This document shows positions 9,053-64,000 of a stretch of DNA of 64,000 nucleotides, piece after piece. Where the stretch lies: positions 496,001 through 560,000 of the forward strand of contig NZ_AP022620.1 in assembly GCF_010731855.1 (NCBI RefSeq), in the 5' to 3' direction. Numbering within the stretch: position 1 is the stretch's first letter; each line of letters starts with the position of its first letter. A program made the translations under genes and the position numbers. The notes under the pieces are model-generated. The model saw only the letters and a program-made list of their open reading frames with translations, did no database searches and was not told where the DNA came from. Source of the stretch: Mycolicibacterium anyangense. GTDB lineage: Bacteria; Actinomycetota; Actinomycetes; Mycobacteriales; Mycobacteriaceae.

Positions 9053-9074
9053 ACCGCCGGCCCGCTAGAGAGGC

Positions 9075-10670: not shown

Positions 10671-10732
10671 CAACCCCCGAAAACCCCCGAACCCCACTAC
10701 AACCGATCGCGAAAGCCCGTGGAGGCAGCAGT

Positions 10733-12010: not shown

Positions 12011-12024
12011 CGAACTCCGCATCG

Positions 12025-12077
12025 GGACGAACGACCGCGGCCGGATACATCACGTCGGCCGCGGTCGTTCGTCCTTT
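12025..12077 (+). terminator. Strong intrinsic terminator after the P450
   Basis: A perfect 19-base inverted repeat (12025-12043 with 12056-12074) with a 12-base loop is followed by TTT. It stands 14 bases after the P450 stop and ends the plus-strand catabolic run where a minus-strand run converges. Confidence 0.88.
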
Positions 12078-47264: not shown

Positions 47265-48431
47265 GTGGGGGCGGCCGACTTTGGGAGGGACGACATCGGT
47301 TCGTACCCCGTGGCGATCGCCCACGACTATCTGACGCAACGCGGCGGCGCCGAGAAGGTTGTTCTAGCAATTAGCCGAGCTTTCCCAGAAGCTCCCATTT
47401 ATACGTTGCTATACGAGCCGGAAGGTACGTATCCGGAGTTCGCCGACCGCGACATCCGGGTCTCCCCGCTCAACCGGGTGGGACCGCTGCGGCGGCACCA
47501 TCGTGCTGCGTTGCCGGTACTCCCGTTCGCCGCGCAGGCGATGACGGTCGACGCGGATCTGGTGATCACCAGCTCCAGCGGCTGGGCGCATGGCTTTCGC
47601 ACCACGGGGGAGAAGCTCGTCTACTGCTACTCCCCGGCGCGGTGGCTCTACGCCAGCGACATGTATCTGGGCGAGGGGGCCGGAGTGATGAAGCGGGCCG
47701 TCCTGGCCGCCCTCGGCCCCTACCTCAAGCGGTGGGACAAGCGCGCGGCGCTGTCCTGCCAGCGTTACGTCGCGATCTCGTCGGTCACCCAGACCCGCAT
47801 CCGCGACGCGTACGGCATCGACGCTCCGGTGCTCCCCGCGCCGGTCGCAATGACCGGCGCCGAGCGGGCGACAACGATCGACGACGTGACGGATTGGCTG
47901 GCGCGTTCCGGTGCGCAACGGCCCGACGGCGCCTTCTACCTGTGCGTCTCGCGTCTGCTGCCTTACAAGAACGTCGATCAGGTGGTACGTGCGTTCGCCG
48001 ACCTGGATCGGCGGCTGATCGTCGTGGGCCGTGGTCCCGAGGCCGAGCGTATTCGCGCCCTCGCTCCCGCCAATGTCCTCATGCTCGAAGGCCTTTCGGA
48101 CAGCGAGATGGTGTGGCTGTATCAGAACTGTCGTGCGGTGGTGGCGGCCAGCTACGAGGACTACGGGCTGACCCCGATCGAGGCCGGGGTCTGGGGCCGG
48201 CCGAGCATCGTGTTGCGCTGGGGAGGCTTCGTCGACACCGTGATCGACGGTGGCACCGGGGTGTTCTTCGATCGACCGGAGGCGTCCGAGATCGCTCGCG
48301 CCGTCCGACTGCTGGAGTCCTCGCGATTCGACGAGGGCGAGATCCGCGGCGCAATGGAGCGCTTCAGCGAAGCCCGATTCATCGACGGGCTGCGTTCCGA
48401 AATACAAGCGACCATAGGGGTAGCGGCATGA
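47265..48431 (+). CDS. GT4-type glycosyltransferase (WbaZ-like)
   Basis: A retaining GT-B glycosyltransferase of up to 388 residues. The N-terminal domain has AIAHDYLTQRGGAEKVVLAISRAFPEAPIYTLLY. The donor domain has YLCVSRLLPYKNVDQVVRAFADLDRRLIVVGRGPE and ASYEDYGLTPIEAGVWGRPSI, the family's E-x7-E region. The opening resembles WbaZ/mannosyltransferases that use GDP-mannose. GTG 47265 is the first start, but GTG 47310 (just before AIAHDY) is close to the family start and cannot be excluded. Its TGA overlaps the next ATG. Confidence 0.88.
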   Translation: MGAADFGRDDIGSYPVAIAHDYLTQRGGAEKVVLAISRAFPEAPIYTLLYEPEGTYPEFADRDIRVSPLNRVGPLRRHHRAALPVLPFAAQAMTVDADLVITSSSGWAHGFRTTGEKLVYCYSPARWLYASDMYLGEGAGVMKRAVLAALGPYLKRWDKRAALSCQRYVAISSVTQTRIRDAYGIDAPVLPAPVAMTGAERATTIDDVTDWLARSGAQRPDGAFYLCVSRLLPYKNVDQVVRAFADLDRRLIVVGRGPEAERIRALAPANVLMLEGLSDSEMVWLYQNCRAVVAASYEDYGLTPIEAGVWGRPSIVLRWGGFVDTVIDGGTGVFFDRPEASEIARAVRLLESSRFDEGEIRGAMERFSEARFIDGLRSEIQATIGVAA

Positions 48432-49453
48432 GACTCATTCCAGGAATCGACGAGCCGAAGAAGTCGGCGCTGATCACCGGCGTCACCGGACAGGACGGGC
48501 TGTACCTCTCGGAATTGCTGCTGTCCAAGGGGTACACCGTCTACGGGCTGATCCGGGGCCAGAACAATCCCAAAGAGGTGATGCTGCGCGAGACGGTCCC
48601 CGGTGTGCAGATCGTCACCGGCGACCTGCTCGACATGTCGAGTTTGATGCGCGCGTTGACGATTGCCGAGCCCGACGAGGTGTACAACCTGGGAGCGGTC
48701 TCGTTCGTGGCGTACTCCTGGCGCAACGCTCGGTTGACCACCGATGTCACCGGTGGCGGGGTCCTCAACATGCTCGAGGCCATTCGGCTCTACCAGGACA
48801 TCGCCGGTCGCAAGGTCCGGTTCTACCAGGCCTCCAGTTCCGAGATGTTCGGGAAGGTCCAGCAGGTGCCGCAGACCGAATCGACGCTGTTGTGGCCGCG
48901 GTCGCCCTACGGCGTGGCCAAGGTGTACGGCCACTACATGACCGTCAACTACCGTGAGTCCTACGATATGCACGCCAGCTCGGGAATCCTGTTCAACCAC
49001 GAGTCCCCAAGGCGCGGAGTCGAATTCGTCACCCGCAAGGTCTCGCGAGCGGTGGCGCGGATTGCGCTGGGCGGTCAGTCGCATGTCACCCTCGGCAATC
49101 TCGACGCTCGCCGGGACTGGGGTTTTGCCGGCGACTATGTCGAGGCGATGTACCGCATGCTGCAGCAGGACGTCGCCGATGACTACGTGATCTGCACCGG
49201 CCGTACCCATTCCATCCGCGAGATGCTGGACATCGCGTTCGCCACGGTGGGGATCGAGGACTGGGAACCCTATGTCCAGTTGGACAAGTCGCTGATCCGG
49301 CCAGCCGAGGTGGACCTGCTGGTGGGCGATGCCACCAAGGCGCAGCGGGTGCTCGGCTGGCAGCCGAGCGTGGGCTTCCGCGAGCTCATCGAGATGATGG
49401 TGTACAGCGATCTCGACAGCGAGTCGCGTGCCATGCGCGCGGCCGCGCTGTAG
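48428..49453 (+). CDS. gmd: GDP-mannose 4,6-dehydratase
   Basis: A 341-residue extended SDR converting GDP-mannose to GDP-4-keto-6-deoxymannose, the precursor of fucose, rhamnose and related 6-deoxy sugars. The cofactor site is ALITGVTGQDGLYLSELLL, the dehydratase motif ASSSEMFGKVQQVPQTE (Ser and Glu of the catalytic set), the Tyr/Lys pair YGVAK, and the family marker FNHESPRRGVEFVTRK. ATG 48428 overlaps the preceding stop. The second family member follows nine bases after it. Confidence 0.93.
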   Translation: MRLIPGIDEPKKSALITGVTGQDGLYLSELLLSKGYTVYGLIRGQNNPKEVMLRETVPGVQIVTGDLLDMSSLMRALTIAEPDEVYNLGAVSFVAYSWRNARLTTDVTGGGVLNMLEAIRLYQDIAGRKVRFYQASSSEMFGKVQQVPQTESTLLWPRSPYGVAKVYGHYMTVNYRESYDMHASSGILFNHESPRRGVEFVTRKVSRAVARIALGGQSHVTLGNLDARRDWGFAGDYVEAMYRMLQQDVADDYVICTGRTHSIREMLDIAFATVGIEDWEPYVQLDKSLIRPAEVDLLVGDATKAQRVLGWQPSVGFRELIEMMVYSDLDSESRAMRAAAL

Positions 49454-49462
49454 CCGGCACCG

Positions 49463-50473
49463 ATGGCTTACCCACCACCATCGGCAGGCACCGCTCTGAT
49501 CACCGGTGTCACCGGGCAGGACGGCCAGTACCTGGCCCCGTTGTTGCATGCCTTCGGCTTCACCGTGCATGGGACGGTGCGGCCTGGCTCACCGCCGGGA
49601 CGGACCCCGCCAGGGGTGCCGGTCGTCGAACACCGGGTGGACCTGGAGAACCGGCACGCCGTGCTGCGGCTCATCGAAAGCATTGACCCGCAGTACGTCT
49701 TCCATCTGGCCGGGGTGACCTCGGTGGCCGCGTCGTGGTCCGATCCGGTGTCGACACTGAACTTCAACGCCAGCTCCACGACCGCGTTGCTGGACGCCTG
49801 CCTGCGGGTTCAGGACGAGCAGGGTAGTCCGATCGTTGTGGTCAACGCCTCCAGCGCGGAGATCTTCTCCGGGGCGGCCTCATCACCGCAGTCCGAAGCC
49901 ACCCCGATCGAGCCCACCTCGCCCTACGGTGCGTCGAAGGCGCTGGGCCACATGATGTGTGTGATCTATCGTTCGCGTGGGCTGGCGGCCTCCAACGCCA
50001 TCCTCTACAACCACGAATCACCGCTTCGCCCGACACATTTCGTGACGCGGAAGATCACTGCAGCGGTCGCGCGGATCGCCCGTGGCCTGCAGGACTCACT
50101 CACGCTTGGTGACCTGCAGACCCGCAGGGACTGGGGGTGGGCGCCGGACTATGTCGATGCGCTGTACCGGATCGCCCTGCAAGGGGTGGGGGACGACTTC
50201 GTGATCGCGACCGGAATCTCGCACTCGATCGGCGACTTCGTGGCGGCTGCCTTCGCCGAAGTCGGAATCGACGACTGGCACTCGTTCGTGCAGACCGATG
50301 CCACCCTGCGCCGGCCGACCGATCCGGTGGAGATGGTGGGCGATTCCCTCTACGCCCGGCGCGTCCTGGGCTGGCAACCGTCGGTGGATTTCACCGACAT
50401 GGTGGCCGCGATGGTGCGCCACGACCTCGACGAGATCGCAATGCCGCAACATGCCGTAGGAGGAGACCTATGA
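49463..50473 (+). CDS. Second GDP-mannose dehydratase-family SDR (dehydratase or 4-reductase)
   Basis: A 336-residue homologue of the preceding protein. ALITGVTGQDGQYLAPLL, the ASSAEIF region with Glu, YGASK and YNHESPLRPTHFVTRK are all retained, and RRDWGWAPDYVDALYRI matches its neighbour's RRDWGFAGDYVEAMYRM. Having two such genes in tandem suggests that this copy has become the partner reductase (RMD/GDP-6-deoxy-talose type) or a paralogue for another sugar; sequence alone does not decide. TGA overlaps the acetyltransferase ATG. Confidence 0.85.
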   Translation: MAYPPPSAGTALITGVTGQDGQYLAPLLHAFGFTVHGTVRPGSPPGRTPPGVPVVEHRVDLENRHAVLRLIESIDPQYVFHLAGVTSVAASWSDPVSTLNFNASSTTALLDACLRVQDEQGSPIVVVNASSAEIFSGAASSPQSEATPIEPTSPYGASKALGHMMCVIYRSRGLAASNAILYNHESPLRPTHFVTRKITAAVARIARGLQDSLTLGDLQTRRDWGWAPDYVDALYRIALQGVGDDFVIATGISHSIGDFVAAAFAEVGIDDWHSFVQTDATLRRPTDPVEMVGDSLYARRVLGWQPSVDFTDMVAAMVRHDLDEIAMPQHAVGGDL

Positions 50474-51090
50474 CCAGCGAACCCCTGCTGACCGACGACG
50501 GCTTACCGCCCTCGCTGGAGCCGGTGAAACCACCGCCGATGCAGGACATCTCGTTTCTCCGCAAGCTGTACAACCGCGTCGGGCTGCTGGGCTTCAACCT
50601 GTTCTTCACCTACTTCCCGTCGCATCATGTGCGGCAGGCCTATCTGCGATTGTTCGGCGCCAAGATCGGCAAGGACTCGTCGATCTTCCGCGGCACCACC
50701 ATCCTGGATATCGGGAACCTGACGATCGGGGAGGCCTGCTCGATCGGCTTCCGCTGCATGCTCGACGCCCGCGGCGGAATCACGATCGGCGACAACGTGG
50801 TTCTGGCCTCTGACGTCCACATCATCGGCGGCTATCACGACCACAACGACCCGTCGTTCGCCCCGATCCTTCAGCCATGCGTCATCGAGGACTATGTCTG
50901 GGTCGCCAGCAGATCCACGATCCTGTCGGGGGTGACGCTCGGCCGCGGCGCCGTGGTCGGTGGCTGCTCGATGGTGCGTGGTGACGTGGGTGCGCTGCAG
51001 GTGGTGGCCGGAGTACCGGCCAAGGTACTCAGCACCCGTAACCCGGACGCGTTGCGATACCGTCCCAAGTACCGGCCGCTGTTCTACTAG
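50470..51090 (+). CDS. Hexapeptide-repeat acyltransferase (WcaF/Maa-like)
   Basis: A 206-residue left-handed beta-helix acetyltransferase. Hexad repeats run from about residue 65 (FGAKIGKDSSIFRGTTILDIGNLTIGEACSIGFRCMLDARGGITIGDNVVLASDVHIIGG) to VIEDYVWVASRSTILSGVTLGRGAVVGGCSMV and AGVPAKVLSTR. The His in GGYHDHNDPSF is at the catalytic place. It would O-acetylate a sugar of the repeating unit. AGGAG precedes ATG 50470, which overlaps the upstream stop. Confidence 0.92.
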   Translation: MTSEPLLTDDGLPPSLEPVKPPPMQDISFLRKLYNRVGLLGFNLFFTYFPSHHVRQAYLRLFGAKIGKDSSIFRGTTILDIGNLTIGEACSIGFRCMLDARGGITIGDNVVLASDVHIIGGYHDHNDPSFAPILQPCVIEDYVWVASRSTILSGVTLGRGAVVGGCSMVRGDVGALQVVAGVPAKVLSTRNPDALRYRPKYRPLFY

Positions 51091-52206
51091 ATGGGCGGCT
51101 CACTGGCCGGCGCCCGGCTCATCTACCTCGGCCCGCGGGACGGGGCCGGCGGGGTCGGGGATTATGCCCAGCAGTTCCTCGACGCCGTGCGCCCGCTCTT
51201 CGGCGCCGTCGTCGAATACCGGCACGGCGGCCCCGGCGAGGACGGCGTGGCCGACCTGCGGCGGCACCGCCGGGCCGTCGGCACGCTGATCGACGAACCG
51301 TATCCCGGACCCACCCTGGTGCATGCCGAACTCAGTGGCGGTGCGGTGACGCCGTTCTGGGCCATCGCCGGGCGTCGGGATGTGGCCCTGAGCGCTACGG
51401 TGCACGACCCGCCGAACCTGATCTGGTGGCCGTGGCGCACCCGCTTCATGGCCAACCATCGACTGGTCAACCACGGGGTGCATGTACCGCTGCAGGCCGT
51501 CTCGCGCCGCGTCGAGCGATCGGTGGCCGCCGGATTGCAGCTGTTCTCGCTGACCGACAGCGGGGCCCGGTCGCTGGCGTCGGCGTATCCGCGGGCCCGG
51601 GTGGCCAGGGTGCCGCATATCGCGCCGGTGCGCCGTGCGGTGACGCCGGCCCCGCAGCGTCCCCTCGCCGTGGGGTTCTTCGGATTGGTCTATCGCGGAA
51701 AGGGTTTCGAGCTGATCGGCCGGATCCGTGAACTCCTCAGCGATGATGTTGCGATCCGGGTGGCCGGCCGCGGAACCGAACAGCTGCCATCCGTTCCCGG
51801 CATCGACATCGTCGGCGGTGTCGAAGGCGCCGACGAGGATGCCTTCTTCGAGTCGGTCCGTGCCGTCGTCGTGCCCTACGGCCGGCGCACCTTCTACGGC
51901 CCCGCGTACCCGTCCTCCGCGGTGGTGACCCACGCGATCGGCTACGGCACACCGGTGATCTGCAGTGACCACGGGGCACTGGTGGACCTCGACCAACGGC
52001 ACGGTGCCGTCGTGGTGCGGGTACCGAGTACCGACAGCACCGGTGGCGTCGAGCAGTTCTGCTGGGCCATCGACTATCTGGTCAAGGATTCCGAGCGGCT
52101 GCATCAACTCGGGGCCAACGCCATCCTGGAACGGGACAGGCGCTCGCCGCAGCGGGTCGCGCAGGCCTACGCCGAGCACTGGTCCCGGATGGTGGGCACC
52201 CGGTGA
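51091..52206 (+). CDS. GT4-like glycosyltransferase
   Basis: A 371-residue GT-B protein starting immediately after the acetyltransferase stop with no intervening base. The front has LIYLGPRDGAGGVGDYAQQFLDAV, an acceptor-domain glycine-rich loop. The donor domain has AVGFFGLVYRGKGFELIGRIRELL and GPAYPSSAVVTHAIGYGTPVICSD in the position of the nucleotide-sugar motif. Identity to well-known members is not obvious by eye. It likely adds one sugar of the repeat unit on the cytoplasmic face. TGA overlaps the flippase GTG. Confidence 0.82.
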   Translation: MGGSLAGARLIYLGPRDGAGGVGDYAQQFLDAVRPLFGAVVEYRHGGPGEDGVADLRRHRRAVGTLIDEPYPGPTLVHAELSGGAVTPFWAIAGRRDVALSATVHDPPNLIWWPWRTRFMANHRLVNHGVHVPLQAVSRRVERSVAAGLQLFSLTDSGARSLASAYPRARVARVPHIAPVRRAVTPAPQRPLAVGFFGLVYRGKGFELIGRIRELLSDDVAIRVAGRGTEQLPSVPGIDIVGGVEGADEDAFFESVRAVVVPYGRRTFYGPAYPSSAVVTHAIGYGTPVICSDHGALVDLDQRHGAVVVRVPSTDSTGGVEQFCWAIDYLVKDSERLHQLGANAILERDRRSPQRVAQAYAEHWSRMVGTR

Positions 52207-53360
52207 GCGAGGTGTCGTCACCGGCGCCGCCGACAGTGAGCCGGATCGGCAAGACGGTGCTCGCAGCCGTGTGGATGTACGGCGGGCGCGGCGTGGGCCT
52301 GCTGTGGACACTGGCGGTGATCAAGCGGCTGGGGATCGCCGACTATGGCCTGTACGCCATGGGTTTCGCCCTGGCAGCGATCATCTGCGCGCCGCTGGAC
52401 AACCCGTTCAACGTGCGGGCCCTGCGGGAATCCGAGGAGCGATTCCTGCGTGAACGCACCACCCGGGTCGGGCTGGGCCTGCTGCTGATGGCCGCGGGTA
52501 TTGCCGTCGTCGACGTGCACTACATCGCCTGGTTCGGTCTGGTGGTCGGTGGCGGCGAACTGGTGTTCAACGCCTACAAGAGCCGGGACCTGCGCGACGG
52601 GCATCCGGACCGGGTGATGCGACGCGACACCGTCCGGCAGATCAGCAGCATCGCACTCGCCAGCGCCTACCTCTTCGCCGCTGCAGCACCGACGTTGCTG
52701 ACCGCGAGCCTGCTGTACTGCGTGCCCTATGCCGTCATCGCCGCGCTGGCGGTGCTCACGGTCCGTGGTCACCGGCCGGAACTGCCGGGGCCGCCCAGGC
52801 TGGTCGCGGCACTGGTCATGGAGCACCTGGGCAACGCCCTCTATATCCAGGGTGACGTGCTGCTGCTCGGGTTTCTCACCGACTCCCGGGTGGCGGGTCT
52901 GTATTCGGTGGCATCAGTGATGGCCTGGGCGGTGGCGGCGCTGGGCCAGTCCTACGTCGCGACCTACCACGAACCGCTGCGGGAGTCCGGCGGTGACCTG
53001 GCGAGCGGACCGCCGCGAAAGTCCATCGTCACCGTCTCGGTGGTGGCGATGCTGCTGATCCTGCTGGTCGGCATCGGCCTGGTGGTGTCACCCGCGCCGC
53101 GCGAGCTGGGCGTTGCCATGGTCCTGATGTCGGTGTTCTGCTGCATGCGCACCGCCAACTACATCTACACCGCGGTGCTCTACATGCAACACCGGGATCT
53201 GTTGCGGGCCTGGGCCGCAGTGGGTTTGGTGCCGGTGAAACTGGCGTGTGTGGCAGGGCTGGCACCACTGGGCGCCGTCGGTGCGGCGGTGGCTTCGGTG
53301 CTGACCGACGCGGTCCTGTTGGCGCTCTACCTGAAGATCCTGTACCGAAGGGGTGGTTGA
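52203..53360 (+). CDS. Wzx-like polysaccharide flippase (MOP superfamily)
   Basis: A 385-residue membrane protein with roughly ten to twelve hydrophobic helices and no large soluble domain. The first helices (VLAAVWMYGGRGVGLLWTLAVIKRLGIADYGLYAMGFALAAIICAPLD) have the LG-DYG-Y pattern of Wzx/RfbX transporters, and EHLGNALYIQGDVLLLGFLTDSRVAGLYSVAS is the matching mid-protein repeat. It would flip the lipid-linked repeating unit across the membrane. GTG start overlapping the previous stop. Confidence 0.85.
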   Translation: MSEVSSPAPPTVSRIGKTVLAAVWMYGGRGVGLLWTLAVIKRLGIADYGLYAMGFALAAIICAPLDNPFNVRALRESEERFLRERTTRVGLGLLLMAAGIAVVDVHYIAWFGLVVGGGELVFNAYKSRDLRDGHPDRVMRRDTVRQISSIALASAYLFAAAAPTLLTASLLYCVPYAVIAALAVLTVRGHRPELPGPPRLVAALVMEHLGNALYIQGDVLLLGFLTDSRVAGLYSVASVMAWAVAALGQSYVATYHEPLRESGGDLASGPPRKSIVTVSVVAMLLILLVGIGLVVSPAPRELGVAMVLMSVFCCMRTANYIYTAVLYMQHRDLLRAWAAVGLVPVKLACVAGLAPLGAVGAAVASVLTDAVLLALYLKILYRRGG

Positions 53361-54535
53361 TGACGAGGGTGACCTTCCTGCTGTCGAAGGACCCCGAGAC
53401 CGAGCACGGCGGCGATCTCACGCTGTCACGTCTGGTGATGTCCCTGGTGGCCGAGTCCTGGTACGTCGACGGCATCTGCCTGTCCGGTCGGGCCGGCGCG
53501 GCGGCGTCGACACCGATGCCCGCCGGTGTGCCGTTGGTCAGGGTGGCCAAGCCGCCGGTGCGACGGACCGGCCTGGCCGTCGAGGCGCTACGCTCCCGGC
53601 GCAGTCTGGTGCACGTGCGGTTCGACACCCCTGCACTGGTGTCGGCTGTCGAGGACTGCGACGCCGACGTGTTCTTCGCGGAGCACAGCTACATGGCCGA
53701 GTCGTTCCTGCGCTCAGCGCATTTCGGCGATCGCGGCCTGGTGGTCAACACTGTCAACTCCGAGTCTGAGGTGTGGCAGGCGACCAGGGGGCGGCTGGGC
53801 CGAGTAGAAGCTCCCCGGTTGGTCCGAGACGAGCTTCGGGTGGCCCGCGCCGCCGATGCCGTCGGCACCTACGATGCCCAGGAAGCCGAGATGTATCAGC
53901 GTGCCGGAGTGTCCGGTGCGCGCTGGGTCGAGCTCACGCTGCCGCCCGCCGCACAGCTCGATCTCGGGGCCACCGGCCCGCGGCTGGCGTTCATCGGCAC
54001 CCGGGACTGGCCGCCGAATCAGGAGGCGTTTCTCGAGGCGCTCCGGTTGTGGCCGCGAATCGCCGACGGGATCCCCGGCGCCGAACTGGTGATCATCGGA
54101 GCCCGCAAGCCCGGTGCCGTCGACCCGCCCTACCCCCCGGGCGTTCGGGACGTCGGATTCGTCGACGACCTACCGGGACTCCTCGCGACGTGTCGGGCGC
54201 TGATCGCCCCGGTGAAGACCGGCGGCGGGGTCCGGGTGAAGATTCTCGACGCGGCGCGGGCCGGCCTGCCGATCGTCGGTAGTTCGGCGGCCGTCGGATC
54301 GTTGAAAGACCATCTGCGACTACCGGTCTACGACACCGACGGGGCGTTCGTGCAAGCTTGTCGGCGGTATCTCCTCGATCGCGGCGCCGCGGAGTCCGAC
54401 GGCGCTGCCCTCTACGAGGTCAACGCGGCGCACTGGCAGGACCGCCGACCGCACCAGGCCGTGGCTGACCTGGTGACCTTGGCCGGGCAGGCTAGGACAG
54501 GGTCACCACCGCGCCGGCCGCAGGTGTCCAGGTGA
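53360..54535 (+). CDS. GT4-like glycosyltransferase
   Basis: A 391-residue GT-B glycosyltransferase. RLAFIGTRDWPPNQEAFLEALRLWPRIADGIPGAELVIIGARKP is the start of the donor domain, and VRDVGFVDDLPGLLATCRALIAPVKTGGGVRVKILDAARAGLPIVGS is the nucleotide-sugar site with the Glu position replaced in the K-I-L-D helix, as in some GT4 subgroups. Its TGA-coupled start follows Wzx. The last 44 bases overlap the converging glycoside hydrolase gene, so the two transcripts run into each other. Confidence 0.85.
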   Translation: MTRVTFLLSKDPETEHGGDLTLSRLVMSLVAESWYVDGICLSGRAGAAASTPMPAGVPLVRVAKPPVRRTGLAVEALRSRRSLVHVRFDTPALVSAVEDCDADVFFAEHSYMAESFLRSAHFGDRGLVVNTVNSESEVWQATRGRLGRVEAPRLVRDELRVARAADAVGTYDAQEAEMYQRAGVSGARWVELTLPPAAQLDLGATGPRLAFIGTRDWPPNQEAFLEALRLWPRIADGIPGAELVIIGARKPGAVDPPYPPGVRDVGFVDDLPGLLATCRALIAPVKTGGGVRVKILDAARAGLPIVGSSAAVGSLKDHLRLPVYDTDGAFVQACRRYLLDRGAAESDGAALYEVNAAHWQDRRPHQAVADLVTLAGQARTGSPPRRPQVSR

Positions 54536-56027: not shown

Positions 56028-57427
56028 CGGACTCCCTGAACTAGTGCGTCATCGCGGTAGCCGAGCTGAACCGCAGATTGTTGTTGGTGTGGATCATTTT
56101 TCGCAAGGAACACCAGGAACACCGAGAACATCATCGTCACCGATGGAATCGTGACGACCGGGAAGTCGAGCTGTAGCGCGACCACGGTGAAGCCGATGAA
56201 GATGCCGGCCAGCGCGGCCTGCGGGGTATCGCCGCCACGCAATGTCCGGTAGGCGACCGTCACGGCGATCAGCAGTATCGCGACGAAGATCAGCCCGGTG
56301 ATGATGCCACCGCGGTAGACGGTGAGCAGGGGGGCATTGGCGACGTAGTTCACTTCGAAGCTCTTGCTGGGATCCTTGAATTCCGGCCTGCCCCAGCCCA
56401 GTCCGAACAGCCAGTGACCGTGCATCACGGAGGTGAAGTTGTCCAGTGCATCGGCGCGTGCCGATGATCCGGCGTCGCCGCTGCCGAATGACGAGAACAC
56501 CCGTCGGCGGACCTGGGGGGTGGCTGCGGCTGCGAGGACCGCCACACCCAGCGTGACGAAGATGGTGCGCCGTTGCTTGCTGCTCAGGGTATGGAACAGC
56601 ACAACGATGACGAGGCCGCCAAGAATGCTGAACAACGCTGCGCGACTGAGGGTGAGCGCAACGCACACCACGAAAAGTGTGGCCAATCCCACACGGCGCC
56701 AGCCGCTGAAGACCACGAGAGTGACGGCGAGCGCCACCAGCAGGCCGATTCCCGCGGTGTTCGGATCGATGTAGGTTCCGGCCAGGCGCACGGCATTTCC
56801 GCTGTCGCTGTAGACGAATCGGGTGCTGTTGGACTCCCGGCCGTACCCGACGACGGACAGATAGCTGATCAGACGGCCTTCGGGATCGGCGGCGACGATG
56901 GTGATGGCGAACAGGGCCGCGGCTGCCGAGGCCCCGGCGTAGATGCGGCCGAAACGGCTCAGATCCGCTGGAGAAAGCCGCAATAGTGCGATCACGAGGA
57001 CGGTCGACACCGTCCATTTGCCGAATTCCGCGATATCAGTGGGTGACTCGAAAGTGGCGGCCACCGACACTGCGGAGGCCACCACCAAGACGGCGATGCC
57101 AATTTCCAAGGGCGCCAAGGTGTTGTTGTCGTTGCGATGTAGCAACGAAGCTAAGAGGACGGCGATGCCGAGGCCGAACGTCAGCGGGGCATGGACGCCT
57201 GGGAAGTATCCGAAGGGCAGCGCCGCCAGCGCGCCCGCCAGTAACCAGTACAGCCACAGGGGATGTCGGATGCCGACATAGGTGCCCACCACCGCGCTGC
57301 TGAGGCCGAGCAGGGCCGCAACGGGTAGCGCGCCGCCGACCAGTGCCGCTCCGGACAGCAAACAACAGACGGCGACGATCGCAACGTCCGAAAGTATTGT
57401 CATGAGCGTAATTTTGTTGTGCTGCAC
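56024..57427 (-). CDS. Wzy/O-antigen-ligase-like polymerase
   Basis: A 467-residue polytopic protein with about twelve hydrophobic helices and one larger extracytoplasmic loop (about 320-370). FVVCVALTLSRAALFSILGG is the Wzy_C/WaaL hallmark (SRAA after a helix), and HGHWLFGLGWGRPEF holds the conserved GxG-type loop. It would polymerise lipid-linked repeat units or ligate the chain. It is transcribed divergently from the Wzz-CpsD gene and translationally coupled to the glycoside hydrolase, so polymerase and hydrolase are made together. Confidence 0.85.
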   Translation of the reverse strand: MQHNKITLMTILSDVAIVAVCCLLSGAALVGGALPVAALLGLSSAVVGTYVGIRHPLWLYWLLAGALAALPFGYFPGVHAPLTFGLGIAVLLASLLHRNDNNTLAPLEIGIAVLVVASAVSVAATFESPTDIAEFGKWTVSTVLVIALLRLSPADLSRFGRIYAGASAAAALFAITIVAADPEGRLISYLSVVGYGRESNSTRFVYSDSGNAVRLAGTYIDPNTAGIGLLVALAVTLVVFSGWRRVGLATLFVVCVALTLSRAALFSILGGLVIVVLFHTLSSKQRRTIFVTLGVAVLAAAATPQVRRRVFSSFGSGDAGSSARADALDNFTSVMHGHWLFGLGWGRPEFKDPSKSFEVNYVANAPLLTVYRGGIITGLIFVAILLIAVTVAYRTLRGGDTPQAALAGIFIGFTVVALQLDFPVVTIPSVTMMFSVFLVFLAKNDPHQQQSAVQLGYRDDALVQGVR

Positions 57428-57553
57428 GGGAATATGCTCGCATCTCTACCGGGTGATGCAACAGAGCGAGCACACTCGTGTTGTGCCGGATCGCCGCGGG
57501 GCGGCTAAGGTTATCGGTGGTCGGGAGCCAGGTAAGGGGAATGGAGATCCGGC
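57428..57553. promoter_or_regulatory. Divergent promoter region, wzy / wzz-cpsD
   Basis: A 126-base gap that must carry promoters in both directions. The GGAG at 57542-57546 is the ribosome site for the TTG start of the Wzz-CpsD gene. No clear operator dyad was found. Confidence 0.5.
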
Positions 57554-59032
57554 TTGGGTATTGGCGACTACCTCAGAATCGTCCGCCGCTACTGGTGGGT
57601 CGCTGTGGTCGTCACCCTGATGGGTGGCGGTATCGGATATGCCCTTGCGGCGACCAGTGTTCCGATGTACGAGTCCACCGCTCGGTTGTTCGTGAGCACC
57701 CAGGGTGGTACCTCGGTGGGCGAGGCGTACCAGAACAACCTGTTCTCCCAGGAACGCGTGGTGTCCTACGCCGGGTTGGCGACCAGCGAGCAGGTCGCAG
57801 CGCGCGCAGCCAACCAACTCAAGACCGGTATTTCGACCGACGACCTGCGCTCGCGGATCTCGGCCCACCCGGTGGACAAGACCGTGCTGCTCGACATCGC
57901 GGTGCGCGATCATGACCCGTCGACCGCACAGATGTACGCCAACGCCGTGTCCGACCAACTCGTCGAGGTGATCAGCGAGCTGGAGACCTCACGGCGCGGG
58001 GGCAGCCCGGCGGCCGGAGTGGTGGTGGTCGATGACGCCACCTACCCGCAGCTGCCGATCGGTCCGACGGTTCTGGCCCGGATACTGCTGGGCGTTGCGG
58101 GCGGGCTGGCCGCCGGCCTGGTTCTCACCATCCTGGTGGGTCTGCTCGACACCCGACTGCGGCGCACCGCCGCGGCGCAGGCCACGACCGACTCGCTGGT
58201 GCTGGCGACGCTGCCCGCTGATCCCGGCCGCGCCACCCTTGAGGTCGCCGACCTCGATTCCGGTGGGCCGTATGTCGAGCGATTGGCCGAACTGTGCACC
58301 AACCTGCAGTTCGCGCGGACCGCCGACGGTGGCAGGCCGCATGTACTGGCCGTCACCAGTGCCCAGCGCGGGGAAGGGCGCACCACCGTGGTCATCGATC
58401 TGGCCGCCGCGCTGACCGAAAGTGGGCACCGCGTCGTCGTCGTCGACGCAGACCTGCCCAACCCGGCCTTGGCCAAGCGACTGGGACTGACGGCCGAGCA
58501 GCTCTCGACGGCGCGCAGGCGCGGACTGAGCACGGTGCTGGCCGGCCAGCATGATGTTGCCACGATCCTCATTCCCGACGCGGGCGGGCATGGGTTCAGC
58601 CTCGTTCCCGCCGGACCGGTACCCAAGGGCGGCAGCCGGTGGTGGCCCGCCGGTGACGCCGACGACGCCTTGGCGGTGTTGCGCGACCAGTTCGACTACG
58701 TGTTGATCGACACCCCGCCGTTGGCGCTGAGCACCGAGGGTGCGTTCGTGGCCGGCTCCGGCGACGGTGCGCTCGTGGTGGTGAGATTGGGCCGGACCCG
58801 GCTTCCTGCGCTGCGTCGCGCGATCGCCACACTGCGGGCCACCCACACCGACATCGTCGGTACCGTGGCCACTTTCGAGAGCGGTCATCGCCGCAAGATC
58901 GCCGAGCACCGGCGACACCTGCAGCGCAGCTCGGCGCAGGCACCGTCCACCGACAACGCCGGCACACCGGACGCCGCCGACGTCGCGGCCGAACCTGCCG
59001 CGCTGTCTCGAGTCGGCAACCGGGAGCCGTGA
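57554..59032 (+). CDS. Wzz-CpsD-like polysaccharide co-polymerase with altered Walker A
   Basis: A 492-residue protein. Two helices (about 15-33 and 175-200) bracket a Wzz domain. The cytoplasmic C-terminal domain resembles bacterial tyrosine kinases: Walker A is SAQRGEGRTTV with Arg276 in place of the essential Lys, Walker A' is VVVVDADLPNP and Walker B YVLIDTPPL. No Tyr cluster is present in the C-terminal tail. It therefore may bind nucleotide poorly or not at all and act structurally in chain-length control. TTG is used as start because GGAG precedes it. GTGA overlap to the next gene. Confidence 0.88.
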   Translation: MGIGDYLRIVRRYWWVAVVVTLMGGGIGYALAATSVPMYESTARLFVSTQGGTSVGEAYQNNLFSQERVVSYAGLATSEQVAARAANQLKTGISTDDLRSRISAHPVDKTVLLDIAVRDHDPSTAQMYANAVSDQLVEVISELETSRRGGSPAAGVVVVDDATYPQLPIGPTVLARILLGVAGGLAAGLVLTILVGLLDTRLRRTAAAQATTDSLVLATLPADPGRATLEVADLDSGGPYVERLAELCTNLQFARTADGGRPHVLAVTSAQRGEGRTTVVIDLAAALTESGHRVVVVDADLPNPALAKRLGLTAEQLSTARRRGLSTVLAGQHDVATILIPDAGGHGFSLVPAGPVPKGGSRWWPAGDADDALAVLRDQFDYVLIDTPPLALSTEGAFVAGSGDGALVVVRLGRTRLPALRRAIATLRATHTDIVGTVATFESGHRRKIAEHRRHLQRSSAQAPSTDNAGTPDAADVAAEPAALSRVGNREP

Positions 59033-60273
59033 GCGCCCGCCGGCGGTGGACGGCGGTCCCCGCTCTGATCGCGCTGCTGGTCGGGGGCTGCAGCCCGCCG
59101 CCACCCGCGGCGGAACCGAAGGTCATGCCCGGCACTGAAATCCGTGATCTCTCTCCGTCGTTCGCCGGTGCCCCGGACCTGCCGCCGCCCGACCTCAGCG
59201 ACGACGGTCCGGGTTCGCTGGTCAGTGTGAAGCGATTCGGGCCCAATGCCGATCTCGACGAGGTCGACGCGACGGCGTTCCGGGTGGTCTACCGGTCGAC
59301 GTCGGAGACCGGCGGACCCACCGACGTCTCGGGGTTGGTCGCGATCCCGCCGGGACCGCCACCCAAGGCGGGCTGGCCGGTGGTCTCCTTCGGCCACGGC
59401 ACCTCCGGTGTGCTCAACCGTTGTGCCCCGACCAGTTACGAAAACCTGCTGGGCAACGCGCCCATGATCGCGGCGCTCGTGCAGAACGGCTTCGTGGTGG
59501 CCATGACCGACTACGAGGGCCTGGGCGTGCCCGGCTTCACCCATCCATACCTGGACTCGCGGGTGTTCGGCCGCAACATGATCGACGCCGTGCGGGCGGC
59601 CCGCCGGATCGACCCGCGTGCGGGTGAGCGGTGGGCGGCCTACGGGGTGTCGCTCGGTGGAATGGCCGCCTGGGCCGCGGCCGACCAGGCCGGCGGCTAC
59701 GGGGGCGGACTGACGCTGGTGGGCACTGCCGCACTGGTGCCGGTCGCCGATATGACGGGCCTGGCTGATGCGGCGGCCAACGGTACGCTGACCCGCGAAC
59801 AGATGCCGCTGCTGGCTTTCGCCCTCCAGGGGATGGCCTGGTCCCATCCGGATTTCGACCTCGCCGACTACGTGTCGGGCTATACCAAGGCGCACTGGGA
59901 CGAATTGCTGGACTGCACGCCCGCCGATCCGGGCCGCTACACCGGCGTGGTCAACGGTATGCAGGCCTCGGACTTGCGCCCGGCCACACCGCAGGCCACG
60001 GCCCGGCTGCGGGCGCTGTTGCGGCAGATGGCATTGCCGCAACACCGGGCCACCGGCCCGCTGCTCGTCCAGTTCGGCACCATGGATCCGCTCGTCAACG
60101 ACGACTGGACCAAAGCCGCCATTGGTAGTGCCTGCGCCCAGGGCGATGTGGTGGATTTCGAGGAACGGATCGGTGAGGGGCACGCCGATCTCGACTCGAG
60201 CCGGTCGTTGCCGTGGGTGAAGGCCCGTTTCGACGGCCAGCGTCCCTTCGACGGGTGTGTGGGACAGCGATGA
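59029..60273 (+). CDS. Exported lipoprotein esterase, secretory-lipase family (1 of 3)
   Basis: A 414-residue alpha/beta hydrolase with a lipoprotein signal (ALIALLVGGCS, Cys near residue 22). FGHGTSGVLNRCAP forms the oxyanion region. The nucleophile Ser is in GVSLGGMAAW, with LLVQFGTMDPLVNDDW (Asp) and GEGHADLDSS (His) completing the triad. The family cleaves acyl esters. As part of a polysaccharide operon it may remove or transfer acyl groups on the exported polymer. It overlaps both neighbours by four bases or less. Confidence 0.87.
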   Translation: MSARRRWTAVPALIALLVGGCSPPPPAAEPKVMPGTEIRDLSPSFAGAPDLPPPDLSDDGPGSLVSVKRFGPNADLDEVDATAFRVVYRSTSETGGPTDVSGLVAIPPGPPPKAGWPVVSFGHGTSGVLNRCAPTSYENLLGNAPMIAALVQNGFVVAMTDYEGLGVPGFTHPYLDSRVFGRNMIDAVRAARRIDPRAGERWAAYGVSLGGMAAWAAADQAGGYGGGLTLVGTAALVPVADMTGLADAAANGTLTREQMPLLAFALQGMAWSHPDFDLADYVSGYTKAHWDELLDCTPADPGRYTGVVNGMQASDLRPATPQATARLRALLRQMALPQHRATGPLLVQFGTMDPLVNDDWTKAAIGSACAQGDVVDFEERIGEGHADLDSSRSLPWVKARFDGQRPFDGCVGQR

Positions 60274-60944
60274 TGGAGTCGGTATCCCCGCCGCGGCTGC
60301 GCGACTACGTCACGATCCTGCGTGATTCCTGGTGGGTGATCCTGGCCGCCACCGTTCTGGCCGGAGCCGTCGGCTGGTGGGTGGCACACACCCGGGAGAC
60401 GACCTACACCGCACAGGTGTCGGTGTTCGCTACGGTTCCCGGTGCCGCCGAACCCCGCAGCGCTTTCAGTGGGAGCCGCGACGCGCTCGCGAGGATGGAA
60501 GGCTATGCGGCTCTCGCTGTTTCGCGACAGGTTCTGGCCCGCACGATTGCCGATCGCCATCTGGCCACCACGCCCAGCCAGCTCGCCGAACACGTCCGCG
60601 CCGAGGTGACACCGGGCTCGGTCCTGCTCGCCGTCCGCGTCACCGACACCGATGAGCGGCAGGCGGTCGCGACTGCGGACGCGCTGGGCCGCAGCCTCAT
60701 CGCGGTGGCCGGCGAACTGGAATGGTCCGGACAGGGGCCCACCGGTGCCCTGATCCCGGTCGGTGGCGCCGCGGCCACCCAGGTGCGGGCCGATGCCGGG
60801 CGTTACGTCGCACTCGGTGCCGCCCTGGGTTCTGTGCTGAGTTCGGTGCTGGTGCTGGCCAGGGGGATTCGCAGCGCGACGGTGCTGACGGTGGGACAAC
60901 TCGACCACGTGGTCATCGATGCGATCGGAGACGGTAGGAGATGA
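60270..60944 (+). CDS. Second Wzz-like chain-length protein
   Basis: A 224-residue protein with a helix near each end (WWVILAATVLAGAVGWWVA and VALGAALGSVLSSVLVLARG) and an extracytoplasmic coiled region between. This is the Wzz layout without a kinase domain; PRLRDYVTILRDSWWVI is the usual entry. It could form mixed oligomers with the larger Wzz-CpsD-like protein. The ATG at 60270 overlaps the esterase stop, and its own TGA overlaps the next esterase ATG. Confidence 0.85.
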   Translation: MMESVSPPRLRDYVTILRDSWWVILAATVLAGAVGWWVAHTRETTYTAQVSVFATVPGAAEPRSAFSGSRDALARMEGYAALAVSRQVLARTIADRHLATTPSQLAEHVRAEVTPGSVLLAVRVTDTDERQAVATADALGRSLIAVAGELEWSGQGPTGALIPVGGAAATQVRADAGRYVALGAALGSVLSSVLVLARGIRSATVLTVGQLDHVVIDAIGDGRR

Positions 60945-62188
60945 ACCAGACGAAATGGTGGCTCATGCCGATCTGGCTGACGGCGATGCTCACCCTGGTG
61001 TCATGTTCAGCACTGCCGCACCCGCCCGCCCCGGCCCACCCCGAGGTCGGTGCCCTCGCGATCCCCGGTGACTTCACCGGTTCCGGGCCCGGGACGCTGA
61101 AGTCCGCCGCGACGCTGCCGACCATCGACCGCCGCATCACCGCGGTATCGGCGACCGCCGCCCGCATCACCTACACCTCGGAATCGGGTATCGACGGCAG
61201 CAGCCAACTCGTGTCGGGCACGGTCTTCGTCCCGCGCGGGACACCACCGCAGGGCGGCTGGCCCGTGGTGGCTTTCGGACACGGATCGACCGGCGTCCAA
61301 CACGATTGCGCGCCGTCGCTGTCTCCGACGCTGTTGGGCACCTCGGAGGTGGTGGTGCCGCTGGTGAAAGCCGGCTACGTGGTGACGGTGACGGACTTCC
61401 AGGGCCTTGGCCTCGACGGCACCTACCACCCCTATCTCGATGCCGGAACCGAGGGGCGCAACCTCATCGACTCCGTACGTGCGGCGCGAAAACTGGTGCC
61501 CGGCACCTCGACTCGCTGGGTGGCCTTCGGCGGCTCGCAGGGCGGCCAGGCCGCCTGGGCGGCCAACGAGCTGGCCGCCGGTTACGGCAGCGGGCTGGAC
61601 CTGCTCGGTTCGGTCAGCCTGGTCCCGGCCACCGATCTGACCGGCCTGGCCGATGCGGCAGCGGCCGGCACGCTGACCGCTGACCAGGGCCCGCTCCTGC
61701 AGTGGATCCTCTACGCGCTGGCCGAGGAGAACCCACAGCTCAATCTCGACGACTACCGCCGCGGCATCGTCGCGCAGAACTGGGCCGTGCTGTCCTCCTG
61801 CTCACCCGACACCGCCGGCCAGCGTGCACAGGTCGCCCAACGCATCACCGCCGACGATCTGCGCCCGGCGACGCCAGCCGCCACCGACGCACTGCGCGGC
61901 TACCTGGCCCGGATGAGTGTGCCGCAACAGCGTTCCAGCGCACCGATGCTCGTTATCTATGGCGGCCGGGACAACCTGATCTCAGCCGCCTGGACCAAGC
62001 AGGCGCTCGACAAGACCTGCGCGATGGGCAGCACCGTCGAGTACTACCTGCAGCCCGACAAGGGCCATGGCGACATCGACGCCGCGGTGGCGTTCGACTG
62101 GATTCATCAGCGATTCGACGGCGACACCCCGCTGAATGCGTGCCCACCACGCGCCACCGACCAGACGCCGGGACAGGCCCGCCAATGA
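60941..62188 (+). CDS. Exported lipoprotein esterase, secretory-lipase family (2 of 3)
   Basis: A 415-residue paralogue of the esterase at 59029. The lipobox is LTLVSCS (Cys near residue 22). Shared blocks in the same order are GSGPGTLKSA, FGHGSTGVQHDCAP, TDFQGLGLDGTYHPYLDAG, GRNLIDSVRAARKL, the nucleophile GGSQGGQAAWA, LVPATDLTGLADAA, and the Asp and His regions MLVIYGGRDNLIS and DKGHGDID. It lies between a Wzz and the acyltransferase, so opposing acylation and deacylation activities are encoded side by side. Confidence 0.88.
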   Translation: MNQTKWWLMPIWLTAMLTLVSCSALPHPPAPAHPEVGALAIPGDFTGSGPGTLKSAATLPTIDRRITAVSATAARITYTSESGIDGSSQLVSGTVFVPRGTPPQGGWPVVAFGHGSTGVQHDCAPSLSPTLLGTSEVVVPLVKAGYVVTVTDFQGLGLDGTYHPYLDAGTEGRNLIDSVRAARKLVPGTSTRWVAFGGSQGGQAAWAANELAAGYGSGLDLLGSVSLVPATDLTGLADAAAAGTLTADQGPLLQWILYALAEENPQLNLDDYRRGIVAQNWAVLSSCSPDTAGQRAQVAQRITADDLRPATPAATDALRGYLARMSVPQQRSSAPMLVIYGGRDNLISAAWTKQALDKTCAMGSTVEYYLQPDKGHGDIDAAVAFDWIHQRFDGDTPLNACPPRATDQTPGQARQ

Positions 62189-63447
62189 CATTGCAGGACA
62201 AGCCCATCAGTGCCGAGGCCCCGGGCACCGCGCCGGCCGGTAAGCCGGCCCGGACCCGCATCGTCGGTCTGGACGGGCCACGCGGTCTGGCCTGCGCGGC
62301 GGTGCTGGTGCTGCACGTCAACGCCCACTATTCACCGAAGGTGATGGACAGCTTCAAACTGCAACTGCTGGGCCAGGCACTGGTGTTCTTCTTCGCCCTG
62401 AGCGGATTTCTGCTCTACCTGCCGTTCGTCCGTGCGATTCTCGCCGACCCCGGTACGGTCCGGCCACCCGACACCAGGGTCTTCGCGGTACACCGGGTCC
62501 TGCGGGTGTTCCCGGCCTACCTGACCATCTTCCTGATCAGCAGCCTGGTGTTCGGGGCGGTCTATCTGGAGAACGTGGCCATCCAGCCACCGGGGACCGA
62601 TGCCGGCACCGGGCGGATGACAGCTCCTGGCGCCATCGTCGCCAACCTCACCCTGCTGCAAAGCTATCTGCCGCAGTACTTTCAAACCGGCCTCAACCCG
62701 TCCTGGTCACTGTCGCTGGAGTTGGTGTTCTACCTGTCGCTGCCGATCTTCGGGGCCCTCGCGCTGGCACTGCGCCGTCGCACCGGGCTGGCGCCGATCG
62801 GTATCGCGCTGCTGGCCCCGCTGACCCTGGTCGTCATCGGCGCGGTGGGCAAGGCGCTGGCGCCGGCGGTGCAGCGGGAGGTCGGCGTCTTCGACCCCAA
62901 TCTCGCCGAGTGGGGGCCGAACTGGCTTGCGGTCTACAACCGCAGCTTCGTCTCGCTTGCCGACAACTTCGCCTTCGGGATGGTCGCCGCGGTGCTGTTC
63001 GCCGCGATCGCCTCGGGGCTGCTCACCGGCCACGTCGTGCGCCGGCTGCGGTGGTATTGCGCACCGCTGCTGGCGGTATCGGCGGCGGCCAGCCTGGCGC
63101 TGATCGCGGTGCACTCCCACGTCTCGAGCACCGCGGTGGCACTGCTGTCCGGGCTGGTGATCCTGTTCATCGTCGCGCCGCTGGCCCGCGGCGAACAATC
63201 CCGATTCGCCGGCGGCCTGGATTGGGCCCCGGTGCGCTATGTCGGGGAGATCTCGTTGTCGGTGTACCTGTGGCACTTTCCGGTATTGCTGGTGCTCGGA
63301 AGGTGGGGTCTGATGGCCGGTGACACCCTGGCCGGCATGCTCCGCAATGTGGCTCTGGTGCTCACTGTCAGCCTCGCGCTGGCCGCACTGACCCACCGGT
63401 TCGTCGAGAAACCGGCGATGGCCCTGGCGAAGCGATACCGTCGATGA
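62185..63447 (+). CDS. Acyltransferase-3 family membrane protein (OafA-like)
   Basis: A 420-residue integral membrane O-acyltransferase with about ten helices. The first helix carries VGLDGPRGLACAAVLVLHVN with the family His, followed by FFALSGFLLYLPF and NPSWSLSLELVFYLSLPI with the conserved Trp/Ser/Glu region. It would acylate a sugar of the polymer on the outer side. ATG 62185 overlaps the preceding esterase stop, and its TGA overlaps the third esterase ATG. Confidence 0.9.
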   Translation: MTLQDKPISAEAPGTAPAGKPARTRIVGLDGPRGLACAAVLVLHVNAHYSPKVMDSFKLQLLGQALVFFFALSGFLLYLPFVRAILADPGTVRPPDTRVFAVHRVLRVFPAYLTIFLISSLVFGAVYLENVAIQPPGTDAGTGRMTAPGAIVANLTLLQSYLPQYFQTGLNPSWSLSLELVFYLSLPIFGALALALRRRTGLAPIGIALLAPLTLVVIGAVGKALAPAVQREVGVFDPNLAEWGPNWLAVYNRSFVSLADNFAFGMVAAVLFAAIASGLLTGHVVRRLRWYCAPLLAVSAAASLALIAVHSHVSSTAVALLSGLVILFIVAPLARGEQSRFAGGLDWAPVRYVGEISLSVYLWHFPVLLVLGRWGLMAGDTLAGMLRNVALVLTVSLALAALTHRFVEKPAMALAKRYRR

Positions 63448-64000
63448 GGATCAGATCCGTGGCGGTGGTCCTGGCTGCCGTGGCCGCCACCCTCGTGCTG
63501 ACGGCGGCCGGCGTGGTGGCCTACCGCGCCGGCGCGAGCTGGCTGCGCGGCGGTGCCGGCGGTGCTCCGGCCGCGGTGAGTTCGGCCACGCTCGGCGGGT
63601 CCGGGCCCGGAACCTTGGTCAGTGCCATGACGATGCCGAATCTCACCGGCACACTGGCGTCCCTCGGGGTGCGCTCGGCCCGGGTGGTGTACCACTCGAC
63701 GGAGGGCGACACCGGGGATCCGACGATCGTGTCGGGGACGGTCTTCGTTCCGAAAGGAACTGCGCCGCAGGGTGGATGGCCGGTGATCGCGTTCGGCCAC
63801 GGCACCACCGGAATCCAGCAGCCCTGCGCCCCGTCGTTGTCGGACAACCTGCTGGGGCAGGCCCCGGTGGTGGCGGGATTCATCAAGCTCGGGTTCGCGG
63901 TCGCGTTCGCCGACTACCAAGGCCTCGGTGCGGCGGGTAACCATCCGTACCTGGATGCCAGGACGGCGGGACGCAACATCATCGACGCCGTGCGGGCGCT
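63444..64000 (+). CDS. Exported esterase, secretory-lipase family (3 of 3; 3' end outside window)
   Basis: The first 185 or so residues of a third paralogue. The signal or anchor helix (AVVLAAVAATLVLTAAGVVAYRAG) has no lipobox Cys, so it is either cleaved or membrane-anchored, unlike its two lipoprotein relatives. GGSGPGTLVSA, FGHGTTGIQQPCAPSLSDNLLG, DYQGLGAAGNHPYLDA and GRNIIDAVRA match them block by block. The frame is open at the last base; the nucleophile region lies beyond the window. Confidence 0.85.
   Translation, partial: MRIRSVAVVLAAVAATLVLTAAGVVAYRAGASWLRGGAGGAPAAVSSATLGGSGPGTLVSAMTMPNLTGTLASLGVRSARVVYHSTEGDTGDPTIVSGTVFVPKGTAPQGGWPVIAFGHGTTGIQQPCAPSLSDNLLGQAPVVAGFIKLGFAVAFADYQGLGAAGNHPYLDARTAGRNIIDAVRA

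Follow-up and report, generated by a model that had tools for sequence, protein, structure and literature searches.

A probable complete Wzx/Wzy-dependent exopolysaccharide locus inserted between puuE and an mpt70-like gene in Mycolicibacterium anyangense

A polysaccharide cluster of 16 intact genes occupies 19 kb (47265-66317) at the right-hand side of the 64-kb stretch of Mycolicibacterium anyangense DNA that we analysed (the window; G000:C1:496001-560000 of a 5.70-Mb single-contig genome), and its right end lies 2.3 kb past the window. We regard it as highly probable (about 0.85) that these genes form a complete exopolysaccharide locus of the Wzx/Wzy-dependent kind, which entered the chromosome as one unit in the interval from puuE to an mpt70-like gene. 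The presence of all Wzx/Wzy hallmarks in one conserved cluster supports this reading. The kind of pathway is itself known; what surprises here is its completeness, its movement among mycolic-acid bacteria, an apparently switch-less co-polymerase and an absent exporter. A sequence-only reading of the window had already proposed a Wzx/Wzy-type locus, and each gene that it listed was recovered as an intact open reading frame (ORF) in its place. The genes are given below in window coordinates, continued as window-equivalent coordinates beyond 64000, where the right-hand stretch is L005.

47265..48431, + strand: gt1, GT4-family glycosyltransferase (PF00534, 78 bits; PF13439)
48428..49453, + strand: gmd1, probable GDP-mannose 4,6-dehydratase (TIGR01472, 391 bits, slightly below the equivalog cut-off of 415; nearest structure 1rpn)
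49463..50473, + strand: gmd2, GMD-family paralogue (PF16363, 282 bits)
50470..51090, + strand: act, WcaF-like hexapeptide O-acetyltransferase (PF00132; NF007797, 102 bits, cut-off 192)
51091..52206, + strand: gt2, glycosyltransferase with a weak GT4-type match (PF13692, 25.7 bits, cut-off 27)
52203..53360, + strand: wzx, predicted MOP-type flippase (family PF01943 matches, hhalign, structure model)
53360..54535, + strand: gt3, GT4-family glycosyltransferase (PF13692, 48.8 bits)
54492..56027, - strand: gh, PslG/GH39-like glycosidase with C-terminal LGFP repeats (LGFP, 50 bits; GH39, 24.9 bits, cut-off 26)
56024..57427, - strand: wzy, Wzy_C-family predicted polymerase (PF04932, 36 bits, cut-off 31.7)
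57554..59032, + strand: wzc-like co-polymerase with a P-loop domain (PF02706, Wzz; PF13614, AAA_31)
59029..60273, + strand: lip1, secreted esterase, probable lipoprotein (VGGC; PF03583, LIP, 69 bits; GVSLG)
60270..60944, + strand: wzz2, small co-polymerase without kinase domain (PF02706, 22.9 bits, cut-off 25.5; two transmembrane segments)
60941..62188, + strand: lip2, secreted esterase, probable lipoprotein (LVSC; PF03583, 64 bits; nearest PDB structure 3h2g, an esterase)
62185..63447, + strand: at3, membrane acyltransferase (Acyl_transf_3; PF01757, 92 bits)
63444..64667, + strand: lip3, membrane-anchored esterase (window ends at 64000; L005:1444-2667; lip1/lip2 similarity; GGSQG)
64851-66317, + strand, outside the window: pgt, WbaP-type initiating phosphoglycosyltransferase (L005:2851-4317; PF02397, 225 bits; TIGR03025, 405 bits)

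The left neighbour is puuE (allantoinase; TIGR03212, 522 bits) and the right neighbour is a fasciclin gene, labelled mpt70-like from its sequence and synteny. Three transcripts are likely from this layout: gt1-gmd1-gmd2-act-gt2-wzx-gt3 on the plus strand, wzy-gh on the minus strand and wzc-lip1-wzz2-lip2-at3-lip3 on the plus strand. pgt follows lip3 after 183 bp on the same strand and may perhaps join the last of them. The genes had been described as nearly all linked by 4-base overlaps. With the starts of gmd1 (48428) and act (50470) taken from the upstream bases, this is true of 9 of the 13 same-strand junctions and not of the remaining four (+9, 0, -1 and +183). The promoter regions contain only short imperfect inverted repeats.

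Hallmark genes and their conservation

The sequence-only reading found no initiating phosphoglycosyltransferase, which is right for the window and wrong for the cluster, as pgt starts 0.85 kb right of the window end. Its match to TIGR03025 (EPS_sugtrans) is over the cut-off when scanned with the longer start L005:2779, and its nearest PDB structures are those of WbaP (30us, 9s7s and 8t53). The cluster thus has the polyprenyl-phosphate sugar-1-phosphate transferase of the Wzx/Wzy pathway.

The wzx protein alone has no Pfam match. PF01943 was found at E<=0.1 in 23 of 42 aligned Wzx members (best 6e-5), the window protein not being among them. When the Wzx profile was compared by hhalign with 15 MOP flippases (12 PF01943 proteins of relatives plus E. 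coli WzxE, RfbX and WzxC), the probability was 94.2 with E 1.1e-7 over 356 columns; an unrelated polytopic profile, that of Wzy, gave a probability of 0.2 as control. The AlphaFold2 model is all helical with about 12 long helices (mean pLDDT 90.8, pTM 0.87). Since wzx has no Pfam match of its own, we assign it by the profile comparison and the confident model, which together identify it as a predicted MOP-superfamily flippase, in line with the Wzx-like protein first suggested.

Wzy_C was found at E<=0.1 in 39 of 39 aligned polymerase members, and the window protein exceeds the Pfam cut-off. wzy therefore belongs to the predicted Wzy polymerases, within a family in which sequence does not separate polymerase from ligase. 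Neither the flippase nor the polymerase candidate fell into an unrelated family. Single-sequence hhalign with E. coli WcaD and with the polymerase candidate of a second locus in this genome (locus 2, described below) gave nothing, this comparison being too insensitive, and comparison with PHROGs gave nothing useful. The two Wzz proteins expected from the window were both found: the Wzz domain is over the cut-off in the wzc-like protein, together with AAA_31, and just under it in wzz2.

Conservation was counted in 39 named Wzx loci of at least 17 kb, each place being assigned to its best query. Since most of these stretches extend only some 10 kb to the right of wzx, the counts are minimum values. 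The full core of seven genes (gt1, act, gt2, wzx, gt3, wzy and wzc) is present in 35 of the 39 loci, with gt1 and the wzc-like gene each in 36. The order gt1-gt2-wzx-gt3-wzy(-)-wzc of the window recurs in 24 loci, and in another 8 wzc and wzy lie left of gt1, inverted. The other genes are less constant: gmd1 and gmd2 are in 17 loci each and both in 15, lip1 is in 23, lip2 in 29, lip3 in 17 and at3 in 15.

Several results weigh against a complete Wzx/Wzy locus. The wzx model had no match at E<=0.001 among viral protein structures, the best being a major facilitator superfamily transporter at 0.042. Neither the Wzx nor the Wzy alignment, used as a profile against PDB sequences, produced a match, and single-sequence hhalign of the Wzx profile against E. 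coli WzxE and WzxC, too insensitive a comparison, gave nothing. One or more core genes are missing within 4 of the 39 stretches, namely L049, L053 and L057 (gt1, gt2, gt3, wzc) and L076 (wzy), while gh is present in 21 loci and wzz2 in only 20. A profile search of the whole genome did not find PF02563, the Wza-type exporter, which matched in 4 of 14 control genomes, E. coli included, so that the outer-membrane exporter of Gram-negative Wzx/Wzy members has no counterpart here. Because Gram-positive members also lack Wza, its absence does not exclude membership in the pathway. Finally, PF04932 also covers ligases and O-oligosaccharyltransferases.

This last point leads to an alternative in which the Wzy_C protein acts as a ligase or an O-oligosaccharyltransferase, the product of the locus being a glycolipid or glycoprotein with short chains. 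The family covers ligases too and carries the name 'O-Antigen ligase', and the locus has a single Wzy_C gene. We consider this alternative improbable, given a Wzc-like co-polymerase in 36 of the 39 loci, accompanied by wzz2 in 20 and by a PslG-type hydrolase in 21.

Insertion, spread and selection

The same left-flank chromosomal site was found in one of the 39 loci, that of Mycobacterium sp. M26. In genome G009 the site is empty: the puuE and mpt70-like matches end 78 bp apart, and to either side the flanks are those of the cluster. They end 64 bp apart at the empty site of G002. Four other rlmN regions bear on this less directly: those of G004, G006 and G012 have neither puuE nor the cluster there; in G011 rlmN stands alone, and this genome carries the cluster elsewhere, at 5.65 Mb. 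The cluster thus sits as an insert in the interval from puuE to the mpt70-like gene, and the core is found again at different sites in other Mycobacterium species, in Rhodococcus and in Williamsia.

To the right, between the mpt70/mpt83-like genes and dxr, the minus strand carries a fused acyl-CoA-ligase/acyltransferase gene and iron-type ABC transporter-like genes (L005:5912-8371 and 8364-12067; window-equivalent 67912-74067), whose binding protein, permease and ATPase were labelled from the sequence. The same genes were found at the empty site of G009 and not in the regions examined from G004 and G002. Their presence at the G009 site indicates that they lie outside the insertion.

Two possible origins were rejected. 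No word of 9 or more bases, direct or inverted, is shared by the two flanks, which leaves no repeats at the cluster ends as a mobile-element scar, and no Wzx match was found in 72,556 plasmid records, against a plasmid origin. The cluster has a G+C content of 0.674, near the 0.662 and 0.685 of its flanks.

Taking Mycobacterium as a genus in the wide sense, we found Wzx in 15 of 148 genomes, the source genome included; the other 14 have it at 49-60% identity. In the wider family it is present in 32 of 251 genomes and 8 of 31 genera. A scan for named Wzx loci gave 44, of which 43 were convincing, in Mycobacterium/Mycolicibacterium, Williamsia and Rhodococcus/Rhodococcoides; the 44th, L090 from a Bacteroidetes genome, was dropped because it matched at 32% over 83 residues. 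The mycobacterial carriers include sp. M26, neoaurum, bacteremicum, frederiksbergense, yunnanensis, hodleri, canariasense, llatzerense and elephantis. The list contains no record from the Mycobacterium tuberculosis complex, although such a list does not fully test for absence. Of the 15 Mycobacterium genomes with Wzx, 13 have a PF02397 gene at a distance of 6.4-21.3 kb from wzx; the contigs that bear wzx in the remaining two, G070 and G111, are 7.6 and 13 kb long.

In the Wzx tree a single mycobacterial clade was rejected (p-AU 0.00014), as was a single Williamsia clade (0.006). The groups were defined by genus and tested after inspection of the tree. Such a pattern would fit exchange between genera and would equally fit old duplicates with losses.

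Comparison with M26 covered 14 of the 16 cluster genes, the other two being beyond the M26 locus. In all 14 the ratio of nonsynonymous to synonymous substitution rates (dN/dS) is 0.04-0.23, with dS of 0.47-0.78, and the cluster is therefore under purifying selection. These values also bear on the idea that the cluster, though intact, is a remnant without a function today, either silent or confined to the strain. Such an idea could draw on the patchy distribution described above (15 of the 148 Mycobacterium genomes), but with every ORF intact and low dN/dS in 14 of 14 genes we find it scarcely credible.

Predicted sugar and acyl chemistry and the co-polymerase

All three predicted glycosyltransferases were recovered, gt1 and gt3 over the Pfam cut-off and gt2 as a GT4-type match below it, and both members of the GDP-mannose dehydratase family have GDP_Man_Dehyd matches. 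gmd1 is 50% identical to E. coli Gmd and keeps SSSE and YxxxK; it thus has the SxE and YxxxK motifs of a GDP-mannose 4,6-dehydratase (GMD), and GMD is its closest match. gmd2 is 38% identical to E. coli Gmd. Its nearest structure is that of GMD (1rpn, 225 bits), compared with 93 bits for GDP-6-deoxy-D-mannose reductase (RMD, 2pk3), and we rejected it as a typical RMD because it scores closer to GMD. It may be a second dehydratase or a 4-keto reductase.

The acetyltransferase and acyltransferase of the sequence-only reading were confirmed by the hexapeptide match of act and the Acyl_transf_3 match of at3. Its three esterases also stood: lip1 and lip2 have LIP matches, and lip3, of which the 185 residues inside the window have no Pfam match, was assigned by its similarity to lip1/lip2 and its GGSQG motif. 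Two of these LIP-family esterases have lipobox-like signals, and some of the homologues selected lack the esterase serine motif. The glycoside hydrolase was borne out by the GH39-like and LGFP matches of gh. In the PDB, gh matches 5jvk and PslG (4zn2), and its LGFP part matches PS1 (6swz). The motif WNEP is present in 22 of 22 aligned proteins, and a second candidate Glu (W.TE[YF]G) in each of the 21 of these that were inspected for it. PslG is the exopolysaccharide hydrolase of the Psl locus. From these genes, the polymer would contain a 6-deoxyhexose and be acylated.

GMD-family genes and acyltransferases also occur in the described mycobacterial lipooligosaccharide and glycopeptidolipid loci, so that the cluster might be one of these with unusual extra genes. 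Neither a polyketide synthase nor a FadD, Pap or MmpL family appeared among the matches listed for the cluster proteins, in some tables the best 25 and for pgt and the whole of lip3 those from NCBIfam only, and a glycolipid locus was rejected for this reason. act does match TIGR02353, of nonribosomal peptide synthetase type, but through its hexapeptide part and far below the cut-off (24 vs 423 bits). The acyl-CoA-ligase/acyltransferase fusion, present also at the G009 empty site, is outside the insertion. A known glycolipid locus is thus very unlikely.

Wzc-like co-polymerases control chain length in polymerisation. The Walker A motif of the window protein is GEGRTT, in which the lysine is replaced by arginine. 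This arginine was found in 37 of 37 family members (the window and 36 loci with a match covering at least 80%), whereas the lysine is retained in E. coli Wzc and in the Wzc of locus 2. The cluster's protein therefore lacks the Walker-A lysine of the BY-type tyrosine kinases (Wzc/CapB). These kinases are described in one source as having a C-terminal tyrosine-rich motif (PMC3795738), and this motif is also missing. The last 60 residues contain no tyrosine in the window protein and 0-1 in 34 of 36 homologues; the others, L070 with 3 and L087 with 2, are shorter proteins, perhaps truncated where the locus sequence stops. E. coli Wzc has 7 and the locus-2 Wzc only 1. There is no phosphatase among the cluster genes. 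Arginine in Walker A together with the missing tyrosine cluster suggests that the usual kinase switch has been lost.

We also considered whether the arginine is a private mark of this family. Twenty other mycobacterial Wzc homologues, one per genome without this wzx, were picked by hand, mostly from the upper-scoring matches and not at random. At the Walker-A position 13 have lysine, 4 arginine and 3 threonine, and the idea was rejected. The threonine (GEGTTT) is in the Wzc-like proteins of L142, L143 and L144, from three mycobacterial genomes. Four or five tyrosines are present in the last 60 residues of 9 of the 13 lysine types, 0-2 in the other four and one or two in the seven arginine or threonine types. 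Degenerate P-loops thus go with few C-terminal tyrosines, and they arose or spread beyond the cluster's family.

From the gene content we infer the following route, in its biochemical steps, its sugars and the location of its product. Pgt would place a hexose-1-phosphate on the polyprenyl carrier, and Gt1-Gt3 would add sugars, at least one of them a 6-deoxyhexose derived from GDP-mannose via Gmd1/Gmd2. Act would acetylate the repeat unit, which Wzx would flip and Wzy polymerise. The Wzc-like protein and Wzz2 would set the chain length, probably without a tyrosine-kinase cycle. At3 and the surface esterases may trim or transfer acyl groups, and the LGFP-anchored PslG-like hydrolase may release or trim chains at the mycomembrane. 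A further, tentative possibility is a form of the Wzx/Wzy pathway adapted to the mycomembrane, with chain length set by a switch-less co-polymerase and a polymer that would arrive at the surface without a Wza-like channel. The LGFP-anchored hydrolase might assist in this, as might lipoprotein esterases or transacylases that acylate the polymer and either retain it in the mycolate layer or let it pass.

Related loci and machinery in the genus

The E. coli colanic acid locus (WcaJ, WzxC, WcaD, Wzc, gmd, fcl, wcaF) shares with the cluster an initiator, a flippase, a polymerase and a co-polymerase, and also a GMD (50% for gmd1) and a WcaF-like acetyltransferase. Unlike that locus, the mycobacterial cluster has no wza, wzb or fcl, carries the Walker-A arginine and contains an LGFP-PslG hydrolase and three esterases. 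The Pseudomonas Psl locus likewise has a GH39-like hydrolase, PslG, in an exopolysaccharide cluster; unlike PslG, the mycobacterial protein bears at its C-terminus LGFP repeats of the corynebacterial PS1 kind.

Actinoplanes species form spores and have no mycomembrane. In Actinoplanes missouriensis, wps and imp are described as actinomycete Wzx/Wzy loci that serve the sporangium, some with deletion mutants (PMC13390465). In Rhodococcus equi, a mycolic-acid bacterium, REQ40580-780 is reported as a horizontally acquired island thought to make an extracellular polysaccharide (PMC2947987), a resemblance at the level of the whole region. A review of the mycobacterial biofilm matrix states that the genetic pathways of its polysaccharides are still to be identified (PMC6364259), and a review of Rhodococcus exopolysaccharides does not mention Wzx, Wzy or a flippase (PMC12786566). 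Among the matches listed in the open-licence PMC literature, from which subscription journals are mostly absent, we recognised no paper describing a mycobacterial Wzx/Wzy locus.

Mycobacterial surface glycans had been noted as not usually Wzx/Wzy-dependent. This stands as a description and fails by gene content: PF02397, counted as initiators of all kinds, is present in 112 of the 148 Mycobacterium genomes, PF02706 in 91 and both in 90. These frequencies make the apparent lack of Wzx/Wzy machinery a matter of description rather than of gene content. Together with this wide spread of initiator and co-polymerase families, the locus is a definite candidate for a matrix-polysaccharide pathway in non-tuberculous mycobacteria. 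It would give mycobacterial exopolysaccharide a concrete genetic pathway, by a route well known elsewhere and little described in mycobacteria. It also raises the question of how a Wzy polymer crosses the mycolate outer membrane, for which we know of no exporter.

The source genome has PF02397 four times, Wzy_C twice and Wzz three times, one match of each of the latter two being below the cut-off. A second, different Wzx/Wzy-type locus (locus 2) lies at G000:C1:5.131-5.153 Mb (L096, L097). It resembles the cluster in its phosphoglycosyltransferase (55% identical), its GMD and its Wzc, and differs in the canonical GEGKST Walker A, a Wzb-like phosphatase, a UDP-glucose-dehydrogenase family gene and an Fcl-like enzyme of GDP-L-fucose type (55% to E. 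coli Fcl). In the protein scan Pfam matched neither the flippase candidate nor the polymerase candidate of locus 2 at 0.001; the genome-wide search gave the latter a score of 29 bits against Wzy_C.

Two further PF02397 genes are at G000:C1:4942302 (L098) and 5508061 (L099); no polysaccharide cluster was evident within 20 kb of either, as judged by eye from ORFs of at least 170 residues compared with this cluster's proteins only. In genomes G001, G006, G007 and G010 a PF01943 flippase lies right beside a PF02397 initiator, an arrangement suggestive of a separate locus that is common in mycobacteria.

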